Both the position numbers and the translations under genes were made by a program. Of a DNA stretch of 64,000 nt, positions 11,216 through 50,375 are shown piece after piece. This DNA comes from Mycolicibacterium confluentis (GTDB lineage: Bacteria; Actinomycetota; Actinomycetes; Mycobacteriales; Mycobacteriaceae), in contig NZ_AP022612.1 of the NCBI RefSeq assembly GCF_010729895.1, positions 2,976,001-3,040,000 on the forward strand, written 5' to 3'. Position 1 is the first letter of the stretch, and every line of letters begins with the position of its first letter. The notes below the pieces were generated by a model. That model worked only from the letters and a program-made list of their open reading frames with translations, searched no databases and had not been told where the DNA came from.

Positions 11216-13564
11216 ATGAGTGCGCGCGGCAACACCGCACCGATGAGCCTCACCCACTGGGGTGCGTTCCATGCCGACGTCGCCGACGGCGACATCACCG
11301 CCGTCACCGCCCCGGCCTACGACACTGACCCGTCGCCGCTGCTCGACAACCTGGTCGGGTCGATCCGGCACCGCTCCCGCGTCGCGGCCCCCGCGGTGCG
11401 GCGCGGTTGGCTCGAACACGGCCCCGGCCCCACCGGGGCACGCGGCTCCGACGAGTTCGTCGAACTGTCGTGGCCCGAGCTGACCGAGGTGCTCGCGACC
11501 GAACTGCGTCGGGTGGTCGACCGGTACGGCAACGAGGCCATCTACGGCGGCTCCTACGGCTGGTCCAGCGCCGGGCGCTTCCACCACGCACAGAGCCAGG
11601 TGCACCGGTTCCTGAAACTGCTCGGCGGATACACCTTCTCGCGACACTCCTACAGCCTCGGCGCCACCGGCGTGATCATGCCGCGCGTGGTGGGCACGCA
11701 CGACAACCTGTTCAAACGCTCCACGAGCTGGGACGTGATCGCCGAGCACACCGATCTGCTGGTCTGCTTCGGCGGTGTCGGCCTCAAGAACACCGCGATC
11801 AACGATGGTGGCACCACGGCACATCCGGCCCGCGAGGCGCTGGCGCGGTTCCGCGCCCGCGGCGGGCACATCGTGTCGGTCTCCCCCCTGCGCGACGACG
11901 TCGTCGGGCCCTGCGACTGGCTGGCCGCCGTACCGGGCACCGATGTGGCCATCATGCTCGGCCTGGCGCACACCCTGGTCTCTGAGGGGCTGCACGACAA
12001 GGAGTTCCTGCGCGAATTCTGCACGGGCTACGACGTGTTCGAGGGGCACCTGCTCGGCCACGACGACGGCGTGCCCAAGTCGGCGGAGTGGGCCGCACAG
12101 ATCAGCGGGGTGCCCGCCGACACGCTGCGCGCCCTGGCCCGGCGGATGGCGGCGGGGCGCACGATCCTCACTGTCAGCTGGTCGCTGCAGCGCACCCGCT
12201 ACGGCGAGCAGGCCCCCTGGATGGGCCTGACACTGGCCGCGATGCTCGGCCAGATCGGTCTTCCCGGAGGCGGTTTCGGCCACGGCTACGGGTCCATGAA
12301 CGAGCCCGGCCTGCCGCCGGTGCGGTGCCGCCTGCCCCGCCTGCCGCAGGGCCCCAACCCCGTGCAGACGTTCATTCCGGTGGCCGCGGTCAGCGATATG
12401 CTGCTGCACCCCGGCGAGATGTTCGAGTACAACGGCCAGCGCCTGCGTTACCCCGACATCCGATGCGTGTACTGGGCCGGCGGCAACCCGTTTCACCACC
12501 ACCAGAACATTCCCCGCCTGCGGCGCGCACTGAGCCGAGTGGACACCGTTGTCGTGCACGACCCGTACTGGACCGCGATGGCCAAGCACGCCGACATCGT
12601 CGTCCCCTCCACGACACCGTATGAGCGCGACGACTTCTCGGGTTCCCGCAACGATCCCCGACTGGTCGCGATGCCCGCCCTGGCACCGCCGTACGCCCAG
12701 GCTCGCAACGACCACCGGACCTTCGCCGCCCTCGCGCACCACCTGGGATTCGGCGAGGCGTTCACCGACGGCCGCACCGAACGGGAATGGCTCGAGCACA
12801 TGTACACCACGTGGGCCGCCGAACTCGACTTTTCAGTCCCCACCTTCGACGAGTTCTGGGCCCGTGGCCACCTGGACCTGCCCGTCGAGGAGGGGCTGAC
12901 ACTGCTGTCGGAGTTCCGTGCCGACCCGGCCGCGCATCGACTGGCCACGCCCAGCGGACGCATCGAGATCCACTCGGACACCATCGCCGGGTTCGGTTAC
13001 GCCGACTGTGCGGGCCACCCACGCTGGTATGAGCCCGCCGAATGGCTCGGCGGGCCGCGGGCCGCCGAGTTCCCCCTGCACCTGCTGGCCAACCAGCCGG
13101 CCTCCCGACTGCACAGCCAACTCGACGCCGGGCGCACCAGCCAGGCGTCGAAAGTCGCTGGCCGCGAACCGATCCGGATGCATCCCGAGGACGCGACGGA
13201 ACGTGGGCTGGAGCCCGGGGACGTGGTGCGGGTGTTCAACGATCGCGGCGCGTGCCTGGCCGGGGTGGTGCTCGACGAAGGTGTGCGCCCGCGTGTGGTT
13301 CAGTTGGCCACCGGCGCGTGGTATGACCCCGTCGATCCGGCCGACCCGGATTCGCTGTGCGCGCACGGCAATCCAAACGTCCTCACCGACGACGTCGGAA
13401 CCTCTGCGCTGGCGCACGGGTGCACCGGTGCGCACGTGCTGGTGCAGGTGGAGAAGTACACGGGCACTCTTCCCCCGGTGCGGGCCCACGAACCCCCGCG
13501 GATCACCGCCCGCGCTGATCGTCGGGAAACCGCGGCGCCACCAGATCCACGAACGCCTCGCTGA
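11216..13564 (+). CDS. Molybdopterin-dependent oxidoreductase, DMSO/TMAO/biotin-sulfoxide reductase type
   Basis: Protein of 782 residues of the DMSO reductase family. There is no N-terminal 4Fe-4S cysteine motif; it begins with the HWGAFHADV segment of the TorA/BisC/DorA subgroup. YGGSYGWSSAGRF at about 110-122 resembles the segment carrying the serine ligand of molybdenum. A C-terminal cofactor-binding domain (LLANQPASRLHSQLD...) is present. No twin-arginine signal is seen, so a cytoplasmic BisC-like sulfoxide or N-oxide reductase is more likely than a respiratory enzyme. TAGACT at 11202-11207 may be a -10. The 3' end overlaps the convergent tetR gene by 62 bases. Confidence 0.88.
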   Translation: MSARGNTAPMSLTHWGAFHADVADGDITAVTAPAYDTDPSPLLDNLVGSIRHRSRVAAPAVRRGWLEHGPGPTGARGSDEFVELSWPELTEVLATELRRVVDRYGNEAIYGGSYGWSSAGRFHHAQSQVHRFLKLLGGYTFSRHSYSLGATGVIMPRVVGTHDNLFKRSTSWDVIAEHTDLLVCFGGVGLKNTAINDGGTTAHPAREALARFRARGGHIVSVSPLRDDVVGPCDWLAAVPGTDVAIMLGLAHTLVSEGLHDKEFLREFCTGYDVFEGHLLGHDDGVPKSAEWAAQISGVPADTLRALARRMAAGRTILTVSWSLQRTRYGEQAPWMGLTLAAMLGQIGLPGGGFGHGYGSMNEPGLPPVRCRLPRLPQGPNPVQTFIPVAAVSDMLLHPGEMFEYNGQRLRYPDIRCVYWAGGNPFHHHQNIPRLRRALSRVDTVVVHDPYWTAMAKHADIVVPSTTPYERDDFSGSRNDPRLVAMPALAPPYAQARNDHRTFAALAHHLGFGEAFTDGRTEREWLEHMYTTWAAELDFSVPTFDEFWARGHLDLPVEEGLTLLSEFRADPAAHRLATPSGRIEIHSDTIAGFGYADCAGHPRWYEPAEWLGGPRAAEFPLHLLANQPASRLHSQLDAGRTSQASKVAGREPIRMHPEDATERGLEPGDVVRVFNDRGACLAGVVLDEGVRPRVVQLATGAWYDPVDPADPDSLCAHGNPNVLTDDVGTSALAHGCTGAHVLVQVEKYTGTLPPVRAHEPPRITARADRRETAAPPDPRTPR

Positions 13565-14117
13565 TCCGATAGGCGTGCGCCATCGGATGGCCGCGCAGAA
13601 TCGCCGCCGACAGCACGGTGTTGATGATGCCCCACAACATCACCGCGGCGTCGTGGGCCTCCTGCTCGCCGAGAGCCGAGAAGTCGTGCGCAAGGGTGCG
13701 GGTCGCGACCTCGGCGAACTCGTCCATCATCTGCGCGGCGGCCGGGTCGGTGGAGTTCTGCAGCAGGAGACAGACTTTGAAGAACCCCGGCCGTTTCTCG
13801 AAGCTCGTGACGATGGCTCGCACCTTGGCGCGCAGACGCTGCACCGCGGGCCGCGAGTCCGAGTCGTCGGCCACGAAGACCGGTTGCGCCCATTCCGCAA
13901 GCACCGCGGCGTAGACGTGTTCCTTGGAGCCGAAGTACCGGTACAGGGTGCCGAGTGCGACGTCGGCGCGTTCGGCGACGTCGCGCATCTGGATCTGCTC
14001 GTAGTCGTGCTCCTTGAGCGCGGCAAGGGCCGCGTTCACGATCTGGGTGCGGCGCGCACGCTTGTACTCGGGCAGTTCGTCCGACGCCCCCGCGAGACTG
14101 ACCGGACCGCCCGTCAT
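13503..14117 (-). CDS. TetR-family regulator of the lipid operon
   Basis: Protein of 204 residues. The N-terminal helix-turn-helix spans about 20-65 (RRTQIVNAALAALKEHDYEQ...DVALGTLYRYFGSKEHVYAA), with the VQMR/ADVALGTLYRYF pattern also seen in KstR-type regulators of lipid and sterol catabolism. The C-terminal helical domain would bind the effector, probably an acyl-CoA. It is the last gene of a four-gene operon, its ATG overlapping the dehydrogenase stop by four bases. It is inferred to repress its own operon, perhaps through the palindrome at 17983-18001. Its 3' end overlaps the molybdoenzyme gene on the other strand by 62 bases. Confidence 0.87.
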   Translation of the reverse strand: MTGGPVSLAGASDELPEYKRARRTQIVNAALAALKEHDYEQIQMRDVAERADVALGTLYRYFGSKEHVYAAVLAEWAQPVFVADDSDSRPAVQRLRAKVRAIVTSFEKRPGFFKVCLLLQNSTDPAAAQMMDEFAEVATRTLAHDFSALGEQEAHDAAVMLWGIINTVLSAAILRGHPMAHAYRISEAFVDLVAPRFPDDQRGR

Positions 14118-16336
14118 CGCCGCGGCAATCCCAGGATCATGGTGGCGATGATGTTGAGCTGGATCTCCCGGGTGCCGCCGCCGATGATCTCGGCGGGCAA
14201 CTGCAGCGTGTGGGCCACCGCGGTGTCCCCGACCCCATGGGTCAGTGCCGCAGGACCCGCGAATTCCACAGCGGCGGTGCCGATCCGGCGCAGGACGGCG
14301 CCGGTGGCGACCTTGGCGATGCTGGTCGCGGGGCCCGGTGAGTGCCCTGCGAGCCGGGACAGCGTGTCCCGCAGGTTCAGTGCGGCGATGGCATTGGTGG
14401 CGGCGCGGACCTCACCGAGCGCGCGCACCAGGGCCTCGCGGTCGGCCCCGGGGCCGTCTGCGAGGTTCCGCAGCACCGACTCCCGGTCGTTGTTGATGTA
14501 CCCGCTGATCGCGGCGCGTTCGTTGGCCATGGTGGCCAGGGCCAACGACCATCCGGCGTCGGGAGCCCCGACGAGCATGTCATCGGGGACGAACACGTCG
14601 TCGAAGAACACCTCGTTGAAATGCGCGTCGCCGGTGGCCGTACGCAGCGGACGCACCGTGATCCCGGGCGTCGTCATGTCGACCAGGAAATAGCCGATCC
14701 CCTTGTGCTTGCGGGCCTCTGGATCGGTGCGCGCCAGCAGTGCACCCCAGTCGGCGCAGTGCGCCGAGGACGTCCACACCTTCTGCCCGTCGATACGCCA
14801 GCCACCGTCGACCCGGGTGGCTCGCGTACTCAGCGCCGCCAGATCCGATCCCGCGCCGGGCTCACTGAACAGCTGGCACCAGGCGTGGGTGCCGCGCAGG
14901 ATCGGTTCGGCGAACTGTGCGCGCTGCGCGTCGGACCCGAAGGCCAGGATCGTCGGCAGGATCCATTCGGCGATGCCCAGCGAGGAGCGGACGACCTCGG
15001 GTCGCCGGTCGAACTCCTCGGTGATGATCAACTGCTGAACGGGCGTGGCGTCCAGGCCCCAGGGTGCGGGTAGGTGCGGGGCCAACAGGCCCGCGGCCGC
15101 CAGGACATCGCGCTGCGCCCCGGTGTAGAGGTTGGCGTAGTCCGGGCTCTGCCGGCCGGGTTGGTCGTTGACCACGGTCGCGGCGTGGTCGAGGATCTCG
15201 ACGACGCGCGCCCGGAACTCGGTCTCGACGTCGGGCAGTTCGATGGAGAAGTCGCGGGTGGGGGCCGCAGGCTCACCGAGTTGGCGCGCCCACCGGCCGA
15301 CAGGTCCGCTGGCCGCGGACAGGCTGATCGCCCGCCGCCAGTACAGGTGCATATCGTGTTCCCACGTGTAGCCGATGGCCCCGAACATCGTCAGCGCGTC
15401 CAGCGCCAGGTCGGGCAGCTTGGCGTTGCCGACGATGGCCGCGCCGGCGGCGGCGATGAGCTGCTGGGCCGCTGGCTGATCGGCGGCACGGGCCGCATCC
15501 CAGGCCGATGCGGCGATGAGTTCACTGTCGATGTAGAGCGCGGCGGCCCTGTGCTGCAACGCCTGGAAGGCGCCGATCGGCTGGCCGAACTGCTCCCGGA
15601 CCTTCAGGTGCGCGATGACGTTGTCCGTGCACCAGCGGGCGACACCCGCCGCCTCGGCCGCGGTCAGTGCCACCGCGGCGAACCGCGCGGCGTCGACGTC
15701 GAACCCGTCCGCGACGGCAGCGCTGCTGACCAGGTGGCCGTCGACCCTCAGGGTGGCGACGTCGCGGGTCAGGTCTGTGCCCGCCTCCGCGACGACGTCC
15801 AGGCCGTCCCCGCCGGTGTGCAGCACCGTCCACACGGTGTGGGTGTCGGTGCGCGCCGAGACGACGAACCGCTGCGCACCCGCGAGCCCGACCACCGGTC
15901 CGACCGCACCGGTCAATTCCCAACCGCCGTCGACGGGGGTGGCCGTCAGCTGGCCGGATTCCGGCAGCACCACGACGGCCCTGGTGCCCTCGGCGATCTC
16001 AGCGGCGAGCGTGCGCAGCACGGGCCCGGCGCCGGGCGCAGCCGCGACCGCGCCGGCGATCATGGTCGGCAGCAGCGGTCCGGGCAGCAGTGCGTAGCCG
16101 GCGGCATCGAGGACGCACGCGGCCTCAGTCAGGCCGCCGCCCTGGCCTCCCGCGGACTCCGGCAGATGGACGGCGTGGAAACCCTGGCCGGTGAAGGCCT
16201 TCCACCAGTACGGAACGTCTCCGGCGGCGAGTTCGTCGAACTGCGTCCTGGTCTGCGCCAGCGGCGCGTGGCGCGTCGCGAAACCCGCCACGGCAGCGGA
16301 CAACTGCGCCTGTTCGTCGGTCAGTGCGAGGGCCAC
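14114..16336 (-). CDS. Fused two-domain acyl-CoA dehydrogenase (FadE34-like)
   Basis: Protein of 740 residues with two acyl-CoA dehydrogenase domains in tandem: about 1-350 (LALTDEQAQLSAAVAGFA...REQFGQPIGAFQALQHRAA) and about 365-740 (FSEPGAGSDLAALSTRAT, QKVWTSSAHCADW, ending GGGTREIQLNIIATMILGLPRR). This fused form occurs in FadE34, which oxidises steroid side-chain CoA thioesters, and related enzymes. The duplicate halves are thought to replace the two-subunit heteromers of other steroid dehydrogenases. The gene starts 10 bases after the DUF35 gene and overlaps tetR by four bases, so translation is probably coupled. A bulky or branched acyl-CoA substrate is inferred. Confidence 0.87.
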   Translation of the reverse strand: MALALTDEQAQLSAAVAGFATRHAPLAQTRTQFDELAAGDVPYWWKAFTGQGFHAVHLPESAGGQGGGLTEAACVLDAAGYALLPGPLLPTMIAGAVAAAPGAGPVLRTLAAEIAEGTRAVVVLPESGQLTATPVDGGWELTGAVGPVVGLAGAQRFVVSARTDTHTVWTVLHTGGDGLDVVAEAGTDLTRDVATLRVDGHLVSSAAVADGFDVDAARFAAVALTAAEAAGVARWCTDNVIAHLKVREQFGQPIGAFQALQHRAAALYIDSELIAASAWDAARAADQPAAQQLIAAAGAAIVGNAKLPDLALDALTMFGAIGYTWEHDMHLYWRRAISLSAASGPVGRWARQLGEPAAPTRDFSIELPDVETEFRARVVEILDHAATVVNDQPGRQSPDYANLYTGAQRDVLAAAGLLAPHLPAPWGLDATPVQQLIITEEFDRRPEVVRSSLGIAEWILPTILAFGSDAQRAQFAEPILRGTHAWCQLFSEPGAGSDLAALSTRATRVDGGWRIDGQKVWTSSAHCADWGALLARTDPEARKHKGIGYFLVDMTTPGITVRPLRTATGDAHFNEVFFDDVFVPDDMLVGAPDAGWSLALATMANERAAISGYINNDRESVLRNLADGPGADREALVRALGEVRAATNAIAALNLRDTLSRLAGHSPGPATSIAKVATGAVLRRIGTAAVEFAGPAALTHGVGDTAVAHTLQLPAEIIGGGTREIQLNIIATMILGLPRR

Positions 16337-16346
16337 ATCGTCTCCT

Positions 16347-16760
16347 TCACCGGCGCGGCGCGTACTTGAGCAGCGTCACGTCGTGGTCCAGAACGTCGAC
16401 GAACACCGGCGTCACGGGCATGCCGACCTCGAGTTCCTCAGGTGCGACGTCGACGAGTTCGGTGGCGAAGCGCGGCCCCTCATGCCATTCCACGATGGCC
16501 AGCAGGTGTGGCACCGCGTCGGCGAACTGCGGCGCCACCGGGCGTTCCGCGACGGCGAAGCTGACCAGGGTGCCCGCGCCGGAGATCTGGCGCCATTCCA
16601 GGTCGTCGGCCAGTGTGCCCGGCGCCAGCACGCGCGGGTAGAACACGTACCGCCCCAACGACGGGGAGTACTGGATCCACACCTCGTGGCGACGCAGTCC
16701 ATCCCAGTAGGGCTGCGAGACCGGGGTGGGCAACGGCATCGGACGTTCGAGTGCGGTCAT
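16347..16760 (-). CDS. DUF35 OB-fold protein lacking the zinc-ribbon cysteines
   Basis: Protein of 137 residues matching the DUF35 family, an N-terminal rubredoxin-like zinc ribbon plus an OB-fold that binds acyl-CoA and partners thiolase-like enzymes. The OB-fold is clear (GAGTLVSFAVAERP...HLLAIVEWHEGPRFATELV). In the ribbon segment, residues 30-49, the four cysteines expected of the pattern are replaced (Ser32, Leu35, Ala46, Thr49) although surrounding residues such as GRYVFYPRVLAP are kept. It would therefore not bind zinc. The ATG lies two bases after the thiolase-like stop, so the two products are probably made in equal amounts as a complex. Confidence 0.82.
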   Translation of the reverse strand: MTALERPMPLPTPVSQPYWDGLRRHEVWIQYSPSLGRYVFYPRVLAPGTLADDLEWRQISGAGTLVSFAVAERPVAPQFADAVPHLLAIVEWHEGPRFATELVDVAPEELEVGMPVTPVFVDVLDHDVTLLKYAPRR

Positions 16761-16762
16761 GG

Positions 16763-17968
16763 CTAGTCCCCCACCAAGATCAGGGCTTCCTGCTCACTGA
16801 GCACGCCGCCGTTGCCGGAGACGAAAGCCCGGTTGCAGTCGTCAATCTGGGTGTCGGCGGCGCGGCCCATGAGTTGGCGAGTGGCGTCGCAGACGTGGTG
16901 CATTCCACCGGCATTGCCGGGTTGGCCGTAGCCGAGTTGGCCGCCGGCCGTGTTCATCGGGAAGTCACCGCGGAAGGTGAGGTCGTGGTCGGTCACGAAC
17001 TGCATGCCCTTGCCCTTCTCGCAGAAGCCGGCGTCCTCCAGTGTCAGCAGCGCGGTGATGGTGTAGCAGTCGTAGATCGACACCATGTCCACGTCGGCCG
17101 GGGTGAGTCCGGCCATGCCGAAGGCTTTGGGGGCGATGTGCTGCATGGGTGTGTTGAGCGGGTCCTCGGCGTAGACCGGTGACTTGTAGGGCACGCGTTC
17201 GCCGAAGCCCTTGATCCAGACGGGCCGGTTGCGGCCCTTGCGGGCCAGGCGCTCACTGGTGACCAGGACCGCCGATCCGCCCATGCACGGCATCACGATT
17301 TCGAGCATGTGCAGTGGTGAGGCGATGATCGGGCTCGCGAGCACGTCGTCAACGGTGATCGGTTTGTCGCGGAACACCGCGCCCGGGGTGTGGTTGGCGT
17401 TGACCCGCTGGTCGACGACGATCTTGGCCATCGCGCGTTCGTCGTATCCGTATGTGGCGGCGTACATCTGGGCGACCTGCGCGTACGGCCCGTTCTGGCC
17501 GAGGTAGCCGTAGGGAATCTCGAACTCCGCCTGCGGCGACCCGTAGCGGAAGCTTGAGGCGCCGAAGTACACCGCGTCGCCCATGTTCAGTGGCCGCTGC
17601 TCGTGCATGGGCGTGAGGTAGATGGCCGGGATGGCGCACAGCACCGCTTCGCAGATGCCCAACTCGATGGCCGCGGCGGCGCGCCACACCATCGCGGCCG
17701 CGCTCGCGCCGCCGAGGTCGACGTACTCGGCGAAGTTGACCTTGATCCCGAGGTACTCCACGACCGTCGAGGGCACGAAGAGTTCGGATTCGAAGACTCC
17801 CGTGGTCACCAGTCCGTCGACGTCCTGCACGCTCAGTCCCGCGTCGGCCACGGCCGCCGCGGCCAGCCTGGCCCACTGCTCGATGGTGAACTCCGGTGTG
17901 CCAGAAGGCATGCGCTCGCACGGCAGTTCGTGGAAGCCGACGATCGCAGCCTCGCCTCTCAGACCCAT
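16763..17968 (-). CDS. Thiolase-superfamily lipid-transfer/aldolase-like protein (Ltp2-like)
   Basis: Protein of 401 residues with the thiolase fold of SCP-x/Ltp proteins but without the SCP2 domain. The usual nucleophile-cysteine region reads DLGGASAAA (84-92) with no cysteine, and the usual GHP histidine motif reads GGQLGYGQPGNAGG (342-355). Tyr299, Tyr302 and Tyr347 stand near the positions of the two tyrosines reported as essential in the steroid side-chain aldolase Ltp2. A retro-aldol role with the adjacent DUF35 partner is therefore more likely than thiolysis. The ATG at 17968 is chosen over an upstream extension because TATGCT lies six bases before it. First gene of the operon. Confidence 0.85.
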   Translation of the reverse strand: MGLRGEAAIVGFHELPCERMPSGTPEFTIEQWARLAAAAVADAGLSVQDVDGLVTTGVFESELFVPSTVVEYLGIKVNFAEYVDLGGASAAAMVWRAAAAIELGICEAVLCAIPAIYLTPMHEQRPLNMGDAVYFGASSFRYGSPQAEFEIPYGYLGQNGPYAQVAQMYAATYGYDERAMAKIVVDQRVNANHTPGAVFRDKPITVDDVLASPIIASPLHMLEIVMPCMGGSAVLVTSERLARKGRNRPVWIKGFGERVPYKSPVYAEDPLNTPMQHIAPKAFGMAGLTPADVDMVSIYDCYTITALLTLEDAGFCEKGKGMQFVTDHDLTFRGDFPMNTAGGQLGYGQPGNAGGMHHVCDATRQLMGRAADTQIDDCNRAFVSGNGGVLSEQEALILVGD

Positions 17969-17974
17969 GCCGCC

Positions 17975-18001
17975 AGCATAGAGGAATTGAAATCTCATTC
18001 C
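17975..18001 (-). promoter_or_regulatory. Promoter and candidate TetR operator of the thiolase-like operon
   Basis: On the reverse strand TATGCT (17980-17975) lies six bases before the ATG at 17968, predicting a leaderless mRNA. Immediately upstream, GGAAT at 17983-17987 and ATTCC at 17997-18001 form an inverted repeat with a nine-base centre across the spacer and -35 region, a position where a repressor would block polymerase. The TetR protein encoded at the end of the operon is the obvious candidate. Confidence 0.5.
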
Positions 18002-18108
18002 TGTTTTGGGGTGGCGACACACGGTTTGGCGAAATTGACAGTGATCTTCGTGCGCCGATGCAAGGATTCCCTGGCGTCGACGGAGCATCGGCTGGCAAGG
18101 ACAGGAAT

Positions 18109-19776
18109 ATGCGGACACAGATACGTTCAACAGTCGGTTCGATCACGGTGGTGGTGATCGCGTTCGTCAGTGCGATGGTGCTTGCGCTGACCGGAACGAT
18201 GCAGGCCGCGATCACCCTGGCGGCCAACACGGCCCTGATCGTCCCGGGTACGGGCACGTCGAATCCCGACGGCTCCACCAACTACCTCAAGAACGCCGTC
18301 AACCACTACGTGAACCCCTCCTGGAGCGCGATCAATCCCTGCACCTCCGATGTGGGCTGCGCCGAAGGTGTCCCCTACACCGCGCAGTTCTGGCCCTTCC
18401 CGTTCGCCGGGTGGGGTGGCCTGGAGGGCGCGAAGTGGAACGACTCGGTGCAGAACGGCGTGGTGTCGCTGTCGTCACGCTACGGCGAGGCGCAGGCCGC
18501 CGCCGGTCCCGGCGACGAGGTCGTCATCTTCGGCTACTCGCAGGGTGCGACGGTTGCCAGCATCGTCAAGCGGCAGTTGGCCAACCCGCCCGAAGGGCTG
18601 CCCGGCCTTCCTGACAATGTGCGGTTCGTCCTGATCGGCAACCCGAATCGGCCCAACGGCGGCCTGTTCGAACGCCTCGCGATGTTCGGCACCGTACCGA
18701 TCCTGGACGCGACGTTCGGCCAACCGACCCCGACCAACACGTCGCCGACGGTGAACACCACCGACATCGCGTTCCAGTATGACGGCGTGGCGGACTTCCC
18801 GGCGGTGCCGTGGAATCTGCTGGCGGTTCTCAACGCCGCGCTCGGCTTCGAGTACGTGCACGGCACCTACCTGGACCCGCGCGGCCGACCCGGTCCCGAA
18901 GAGGGCGAACTCCCCTACGGCTATGACGCGGCCGACATCGAGGCGGCCATCACGGCCTGCAAGGCGGACCCCTCCGGTGCGAACTGCCAGCGGCACGGCG
19001 ACACCGTCTACGTCACGCTGGCCGCGAACTCGCTGCCGCTGTTCCAGCCGTTCATCGACCTGGGTACCTCGACGGGCACCAGCTGGCTCATCAACCCTGT
19101 CGTCGCGCTGCTGCAGCCGTTGACCCAGACGCTGATCGAAACCGCCTACATCCGTGACGACTACGGCCGGCCCACACCGTTCACCCTGATCCCGCGGGTG
19201 AACCTGGTGAAGCTGATCGTCGACCTGATCAACGACATTCCGGAGGGCATCAACGCGGCGATCGCGACGATCAACGACCCGAACCACAAGATCCCGGACC
19301 TGCCGCGGATGTGGGGCGAGGAGAGCGACTCGGCGGACACGCTGACCGTCCTGGCCCGCACTCAGAACGGCGGCACGGGCACCACCGAGATCCCGGACCC
19401 GCAGACGACGGTGGTCGGAGATCCACAGGACGACACCACCACGGTGGCGAAGTCCAACGTGGAACTGCCGAAGCTGCCCGCCCTGAAGCTGCCGAAGCTG
19501 GTGTCGGTGAAGACGTCTGAGGACGACTCCGTGACACCCGCCGGCACGGACGCTGACGCTCTCGAGCCGAAGTCCGATGTCGAGCCCGTGCGCGATCTGG
19601 CCAAGGCGGCCCGCAAGGTGCTGGGCCCGCCGCCCAAGGCCGTCGAGAAGGCCATCAAGAAGGCCGCAGACCGGGCCGCTGCAAGGACGGAGCGGGTCCA
19701 GTCGCGGTTCAGCGGGAAGAAGGCTGCGGCCGCAGAGACGGCGGACAAGCCGGCAGCCGACAAGCCCGCAGCCTAG
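18109..19776 (+). CDS. PE-PPE-domain serine hydrolase, exported
   Basis: Protein of 555 residues. The N-terminus has a hydrophobic segment at about 10-38, a signal peptide or anchor. The PE-PPE domain (alpha/beta-hydrolase fold) follows with LIVPGTGTSNPDG, FWPFPFAGWGG and the nucleophile motif GYSQG (Ser144). Such domains act as esterases or acyltransferases for cell-envelope glycolipids in mycobacteria (for example Chp-type enzymes). Despite the name there is no PE or PPE N-terminal domain. The last 110 residues are a Lys/Ala/Pro-rich disordered tail containing LPKLPALKLPKL. The start has AAGGACAGGA upstream. Divergent from the thiolase-like operon, so possibly linked to envelope lipid turnover. 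Confidence 0.87.
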   Translation: MRTQIRSTVGSITVVVIAFVSAMVLALTGTMQAAITLAANTALIVPGTGTSNPDGSTNYLKNAVNHYVNPSWSAINPCTSDVGCAEGVPYTAQFWPFPFAGWGGLEGAKWNDSVQNGVVSLSSRYGEAQAAAGPGDEVVIFGYSQGATVASIVKRQLANPPEGLPGLPDNVRFVLIGNPNRPNGGLFERLAMFGTVPILDATFGQPTPTNTSPTVNTTDIAFQYDGVADFPAVPWNLLAVLNAALGFEYVHGTYLDPRGRPGPEEGELPYGYDAADIEAAITACKADPSGANCQRHGDTVYVTLAANSLPLFQPFIDLGTSTGTSWLINPVVALLQPLTQTLIETAYIRDDYGRPTPFTLIPRVNLVKLIVDLINDIPEGINAAIATINDPNHKIPDLPRMWGEESDSADTLTVLARTQNGGTGTTEIPDPQTTVVGDPQDDTTTVAKSNVELPKLPALKLPKLVSVKTSEDDSVTPAGTDADALEPKSDVEPVRDLAKAARKVLGPPPKAVEKAIKKAADRAAARTERVQSRFSGKKAAAAETADKPAADKPAA

Positions 19777-50323: not shown

Positions 50324-50375
50324 AATGTGCCGAATTGCATGCAGAATCGCGTTCTCACCTGCAATTCCGCACATT
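50324..50375. terminator. Inverted repeat between deaminase and mmpL genes
   Basis: AATGTGCCGAATTGCA (50324-50339) and TGCAATTCCGCACATT (50360-50375) are inverted copies matching at 15 of 16 bases, with a 20-base centre. It lies in the 102-base gap between two convergent genes. A bidirectional transcription terminator is most likely; a dispersed palindromic repeat is the alternative. Confidence 0.6.

Follow-up and report, generated by a model that had tools for sequence, protein, structure and literature searches.

A Mycolicibacterium confluentis counterpart of the HBC operon of Mycolicibacterium neoaurum

Results

Gene organisation at the locus

The window analysed here is a stretch of 64,000 nucleotides from Mycolicibacterium confluentis. 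ORF calls placed genes for a thiolase-like protein, a DUF35 protein, a fused acyl-CoA dehydrogenase and a TetR-family protein on the minus strand, all in one direction. The features of the locus are:

13503-14117, minus strand: kstR3 orthologue, TetR-family repressor (204 aa; Pfam TetR_N)
14114-16336, minus strand: chsE6 orthologue, two-half fused acyl-CoA dehydrogenase (740 aa, GTG start; Pfam ACAD N, M and C domains)
16347-16760, minus strand: chsH4 orthologue, stand-alone DUF35 protein (137 aa; Pfam PF01796, OB_ChsH2_C)
16763-17968, minus strand: atf1 orthologue, thiolase-like protein (401 aa, ATG start; Pfam PF22691, Thiolase_C_1)
17982-18002, no strand: candidate operator, AGGAATGAGATTTCAATTCCT in the operon direction, with a 15-base core at 17988-18002
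18109-19776, plus strand: PE-PPE-domain gene, divergent neighbour outside the operon (PF08237; start at 18109 chosen)

The 2-base gap, 10-base gap and 4-base overlap that an earlier note on this DNA had described between four co-directional genes were borne out by the ORF coordinates. The stretch that it took as the operon (14114-17968) comprises the three enzyme genes, but the TetR gene named in its title falls outside (13503-14117). It was right that no hydratase is encoded in the operon, which consists of the four genes listed. Past the TetR gene come a gene for a molybdopterin oxidoreductase and one for a single acyl-CoA dehydrogenase.

Comparison with the HBC operon of M. neoaurum

Knockouts have been used in M. 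neoaurum ATCC 25795 to study its HBC operon, atf1-chsH4-chsE6-kstR3, which removes two carbons from a sterol side chain by a retro-aldol step (PMC10398937). According to that report, deletion of atf1 or chsH4 abolishes 4-HBC formation. Pseudomonas sal1 replaces atf1, and sal1 together with shy replaces chsH4, whereas neither alone does so (PMC10398937). Deletion of kstR3 raises the transcripts of atf1, chsH4, chsE6 and the upstream gene Mn_4961 (PMC10398937).

The locus of M. neoaurum ATCC 25795 (L020) has counterparts of all four genes, ordered and flanked as in the window, with identities of 84.5% for the aldolase, 73.4% for the DUF35 protein, 63.5% for the dehydrogenase and 63.9% for the TetR protein. 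The DUF35 protein stands alone in both species, and its ORF in L020 encodes 138 aa, the length published for ChsH4 (PMC10398937). A single aldolase of this type is a further shared trait; in the L020 genome, identity to the window's aldolase falls from 85% for the best match to 32% for the next. A homologue of the PE-PPE gene also lies upstream of atf1 in L020. The two operons differ in species, in protein sequence (63.5-84.5% identity) and in the candidate operator, which is much weaker here (11 of 15 positions) than there (15 of 15). The same gene order and orthologous genes mean that this is not the new degradation unit that had been proposed; judged by sequence, the window operon is the orthologue of the M. 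neoaurum HBC operon.

Related work on M. neoaurum NRRL B-3805 reports that deletion of sal stopped 1,4-HBC (PMC10834601) and that deletion of genes named thl stopped 4-HBC (PMC12409849). In our literature search, the terms chsH4, chsE6 and 'HBC operon' were found only in PMC10398937. The operon is described there as induced by sterols, whereas a different M. neoaurum strain shows a fall of sal when induced with phytosterol (PMC10834601). These two reports are in conflict. An aldolase of M. smegmatis for the same product is reportedly named in a title within a reference list.

Conservation and rearranged forms

The comparison covered the best 80 of 138 stretches that matched; L009-L020 are the 12 closest, and some of the 80 loci stop at contig ends. 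Homologues were listed as the best 120 of 4424, so that both sets cover the less distant forms. Within the best 80 of 138 loci, DUF35 and dehydrogenase genes follow the aldolase gene in all 12 closest loci, and 11 of these keep all four genes in the window's order, which is more than chance would give; in the remaining one, L015, the TetR gene was not found. Molybdopterin oxidoreductase and HflX genes flank the operon in 10 of the 12. In the other 68 loci of the same set, the dehydrogenase gene stands directly before the aldolase gene instead (60/68), so that the module exists in a rearranged form too. The DUF35 gene follows the aldolase gene in 67 of them, this TetR gene follows it in none, and a similar TetR gene precedes it in four.

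The rearranged form (dehydrogenase, aldolase, DUF35) was seen among L022-L088, for instance at L034:6733-11639. In this single case, the dehydrogenase gene has its start overlapped by a 3beta-HSD-like gene, with a dissimilar TetR gene in divergent orientation. In four Williamsia loci (L074, L076, L077 and L079), a TetR protein about 49-50% identical to the window's is encoded before the aldolase and DUF35 genes, and no fused dehydrogenase gene adjoins them. One close locus, L012, lies on a contig labelled as an Acidobacteria MAG; it carries the mycobacterial operon with 89% aldolase identity and is probably misbinned.

The fused dehydrogenase

The Glu of the NER motif in the fused dehydrogenase, E606, aligns with the NHER motif of 4x28 chain A, which we take to be ChsE4-ChsE5. 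E606 presumably corresponds to the catalytic Glu of the ChsE4-ChsE5 type and is the probable catalytic base. An equivalent Glu is present in 71 of 73 dehydrogenase sequences, the two misses (L011 and L062) being pieces that do not reach this position. In the steroid dehydrogenases ChsE4-ChsE5 and ChsE1-ChsE2 the catalytic Glu is placed in the alpha subunit, and the base of LCAD and IVD is placed apart from that of MCAD, on helix G in LCAD (PMC11153573).

In a tree of 36 rows, the dehydrogenases that go with the aldolase fall into a single clade (100/100). Its sister clade, at 92/93 across a join that the program warns lies between long branches, consists of fused dehydrogenases including the one at C1:93538-95532, which is divergent beside the genome's true KstR gene. 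We take the latter enzyme to be FadE34-like; FadE34 itself stands beside KstR in M. tuberculosis. The window's dehydrogenase and this FadE34-like enzyme are both two-half fused acyl-CoA dehydrogenases with the same Glu, but their identity is 39-44%. Another paralogue of the same genome, C1:4536663-4538843, scores higher (455 bits against 389 for the dehydrogenase beside KstR). Calling the window's dehydrogenase simply FadE34 is unsupported, since it is sister to the clade beside KstR and not inside it, and since this other paralogue scores higher. In one related locus (L011:10173-12417), the match to the fused dehydrogenase gene is split into two pieces that overlap and lie in different frames, reflecting a sequencing error or a broken gene.

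A different role was first presumed for ChsE6, namely reduction of the C22 aldehyde 3-OPA to 4-HBC, with operon and aldolase otherwise as described here (PMC10398937). Deletion of chsE6 lowers 4-HBC plus 9-OHHBC by 27%, in keeping with such a role, but expressed ChsE6 gave no reaction on 3-OPA (PMC10398937). The ACAD domains and the Glu at the probable base position in 71/73 rows also speak against it, and we regard an aldehyde reductase as unlikely. As the probable catalytic Glu is kept, the enzyme is more likely an acyl-CoA dehydrogenase than an aldehyde reductase, and acyl-CoA dehydrogenation by the fused ACAD, as the earlier note had proposed, would fit the sequence better than the published guess. 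The modest 27% loss in the knockout would be explained by redundancy: four strong fused dehydrogenase matches, including the operon's own, were counted in every one of five genomes.

The aldolase

When the thiolase-like protein was searched among solved structures, the best match was 9MYR chain A (451 bits), which is the bile-acid aldolase CtSal of Comamonas testosteroni solved with the DUF35 domain of CtShy (PMC12329534). Weaker matches were 4u4e (183 bits), 7yvy (132 bits) and TcLtp2 (6OK1, 130 bits), followed by benzoylsuccinyl-CoA thiolase (94 bits) and PhlC (66-72 bits). The identity to CtSal is 53.6% (214 of 399 aligned residues). Tyr302 and Cys304 of CtSal are reported as essential by mutation (PMC12329534); they align with Y299 and C301 of the window's aldolase, within a YDCY motif, and Q161, Q347, Q352 and G391 align with Q158, Q344, Q349 and G388. 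All six residues are kept in the window and in 80/80 related loci (best 80 of 138), and Gly89 in 79 of these 80. Pro takes the place of CtSal R216 in the window's aldolase and in all 80 loci (again the best 80 of 138); the R216A variant of CtSal is still active (PMC12329534). Y299 and C301 would thus be the catalytic pair. The Cys was missed by the earlier note, which had pointed to tyrosines near the Ltp2 positions. The first of these holds, Y299 corresponding to CtSal Y302, which is equated with Y294 of TcLtp2 (PMC12329534); the position of the second TcLtp2 Tyr is Gln349 here.

With DLGGASAAA at residues 84-92 and GQP at residues 348-350, the nucleophilic Cys of SCP-2 thiolases and the His of the GHP motif are both absent, as the earlier note had said, and thiolysis by this enzyme is ruled out by the missing Cys. 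This bears on the reading that the operon serves another bulky or branched, non-steroid acyl-CoA by a thiolase or aldolase reaction. Thiolase-DUF35 pairs do occur outside steroid pathways, but those of benzoylsuccinyl-CoA thiolase and PhlC are the weaker matches, the closest characterised relatives act on steroids, and the orthologues have sterol phenotypes (PMC10398937). The 3beta-HSD-like gene that overlaps the dehydrogenase gene in L034 likewise points to steroids, and nothing was found pointing to the branched fatty acids that the earlier note had considered. A non-steroid unit is thus very unlikely, and the substrate of the aldolase is probably a steroid acyl-CoA side chain.

Hardly credible is an Ltp2-type unit acting on a C3 side chain, in the last step of sterol side-chain removal: superfamily, DUF35 partner, first Tyr and the 130-bit TcLtp2 match are common ground, but the 451-bit match to CtSal, YDCY in place of YDHF, Gln349 in place of the second Tyr, the tree, and the genome's own YDHF protein beside a DUF35 protein (C1:135921-137051) all stand against it. 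In this tree of 32 rows, which carries long-branch warnings on other rows, the window's aldolase and CtSal group together at 100/100, and the YDHF protein falls in the other branch. Hence the earlier assignment to the Ltp2 type was not upheld, whereas a thiolase-fold retro-aldolase with a DUF35 partner, as in Ltp2-ChsH2, was right in outline, given the 9MYR match and the residues. By all these features the predicted aldolase is of the Sal type, not the Ltp2 type.

YDCY homologues in cholesterol-degrading Actinobacteria have already been remarked on (PMC12329534). A Mycobacterium interjectum genome (G007) encodes a second Sal-type aldolase with YDCY (L129), 62% identical to the window's, in addition to one of 74% identity.

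The DUF35 partner and the beta2-alpha2 loop

The DUF35 protein matches 9MYR chain B at 118 bits. CtShy joins its DUF35 domain, which has a Cys3His1 zinc site, to a MaoC hydratase in one protein (PMC12329534), whereas the window's protein stands alone and has Ser, Gly, Ala and Thr at the positions of the three Cys and the His. None of 80 DUF35 sequences (the window and 79 loci, from the best 80 of 138) has Cys or His at any of these four positions, and five of them carry a single Cys or His at some other place in the zinc loop; in L062, a DUF35 gene was looked for and none was found. As the zinc site is a trait of Shy, its absence bears on the partner and not on the aldolase.

The genome has 10 DUF35 places, of which eight were examined as loci for Cys pairs. 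The DUF35 protein beside the YDHF aldolase (L001, presumably ChsH2) is also without Cys pairs, its MaoC part lying outside the scan; one or more C-x2-C pairs are found in each of L002, L003, L006, L007 and L008, and L005 yielded no match in this comparison. Zinc loss as a trait peculiar to the window's DUF35 protein is ruled out by L001. At C1:5064596-5068396 (L098, L002 and L106), the same genome groups other thiolase-like, DUF35 and fused acyl-CoA dehydrogenase genes, and two Cys pairs are kept in that DUF35 protein.

CtSal acts on bile acids, and both the zinc site and His59 have been tied to its rejection of flat sterols (PMC12329534). For this reason, loss of the zinc site in the DUF35 protein would be in line with a sterol substrate. 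The aldolase loop corresponding to the His59 loop is two residues shorter than in CtSal, and the His59 position is Gly in the window and in 12/12 close loci, but His in 61/68 others (best 80 of 138). His59 was considered as a bile-acid/sterol switch and set aside, given the His in these 61 of 68 less close loci (best 80 of 138) and the two-residue gap beside it.

The TetR protein and a candidate operator

The TetR protein belongs to the same family as KstR, a steroid-linked repressor, but it reaches about 67-68 bits against the KstR model NF033703, below the cut-off of 280 bits, which the genome's true KstR exceeds (335 bits). It ranks third among the KstR matches of its genome, after proteins with 335 and 131 bits, which gives no support to the view that it is KstR's closest paralogue. 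Two earlier papers also have a KstR3: PMC8708139 uses the name next to genes of the cholate pathway, and PMC7593942 uses it where lithocholate catabolism is discussed. The shared name is therefore no proof of identity.

An exact copy of the palindrome TAGAATCTSATTCTA, which has a three-base centre, lies upstream of the aldolase gene in 6/12 close loci (from the best 80 of 138), at a distance of 48-54 bases. In G001, G002 and G003, which carry the operon in the same order, this upstream site is the single exact match per genome, and no exact match turned up in the six further genomes searched, one of which is the window's own. When the best match per whole locus was taken (best 80 of 138 loci), it lay 34-60 bases before the aldolase gene in 10 of the 12 close loci, at 11-15 of 15 positions, and in the other 68 loci the best match anywhere was 9-11 of 15. 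Of the two that depart from this, L012 has a weak site, and in L015 the TetR gene was not found.

The window's core (17988-18002) matches TAGAATCTSATTCTA at 11 of 15 positions. This was reached in 22 of 500 mononucleotide shuffles of its upstream region. A site at 50342 of the window ties with it, loci of the other arrangement attain the same score by chance, and two places elsewhere in the genome match better (two mismatches). On score alone, which is at chance level, the window's palindrome is unconvincing; an operator is argued for here from the location of the site and from the related loci. Among those, a palindrome before atf1 goes together with kstR3, but the window's copy is weak. The main text of PMC10398937 mentions no motif or palindrome, its one mention of a 'binding site' being in a reference title. 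The PE-PPE gene homologue in L020 is probably the KstR3-responsive Mn_4961; if it is the same gene, a candidate operator between it and the operon would explain its response to KstR3.

Proposed function

We consider it very probable that this HBC operon orthologue serves C22-C23 retro-aldol cleavage of 22-OH-BNC-CoA by the aldolase-DUF35 pair under repression by the TetR protein. The dehydrogenase would make a 22-ene-CoA, and a hydratase encoded elsewhere would supply the hydration; a precedent for this order is given by 22-hydroxy substrates made with the dehydrogenase CasC and then the separate hydratase ChsH3 (PMC12329534). The aldolase with its required DUF35 partner would cleave the C22-C23 bond of the resulting 22-hydroxy C24 steroid-CoA. 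Y299 would deprotonate the C22 hydroxyl, and C301 would protonate the acetyl-CoA enolate. The products would be acetyl-CoA and the C22 aldehyde 3-OPA, en route to 4-HBC. The TetR protein would repress the operon via the palindrome upstream of atf1, and the substrate in M. confluentis would be the same as in M. neoaurum. Against this reading stand the Pro at the R216 position, the conflict over induction, the rank of the TetR protein as third KstR match and the weak operator copy.

A wider version, which we hold tentatively and at somewhat less than even probability, is a self-regulated module for C5 side chains. It would comprise a dedicated 22,23-dehydrogenase, a shared outside hydratase, a zinc-less DUF35 protein and shortened beta2-alpha2 loop that open the Sal cleft to flat sterols as opposed to bent bile acids, and a TetR protein with its own box (TAGAATCTSATTCTA in relatives) that also controls the PE-PPE gene. 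Our reserve is due to the window operator being beaten elsewhere in the genome and to the less firm kinship with FadE34.

The operon is already known and largely ordinary. In M. neoaurum, as published, it helps to set the share of sterol that goes to C22 versus C19 steroids, which matters for steroid drug making. The additions made here are small and testable, and concern the role of the dehydrogenase, the operator and the zinc-less DUF35 partner. They bear on what the dehydrogenase does, on where the repressor would bind and on how flat sterols may be accepted by an aldolase of the Sal type, a type known from bile acids.
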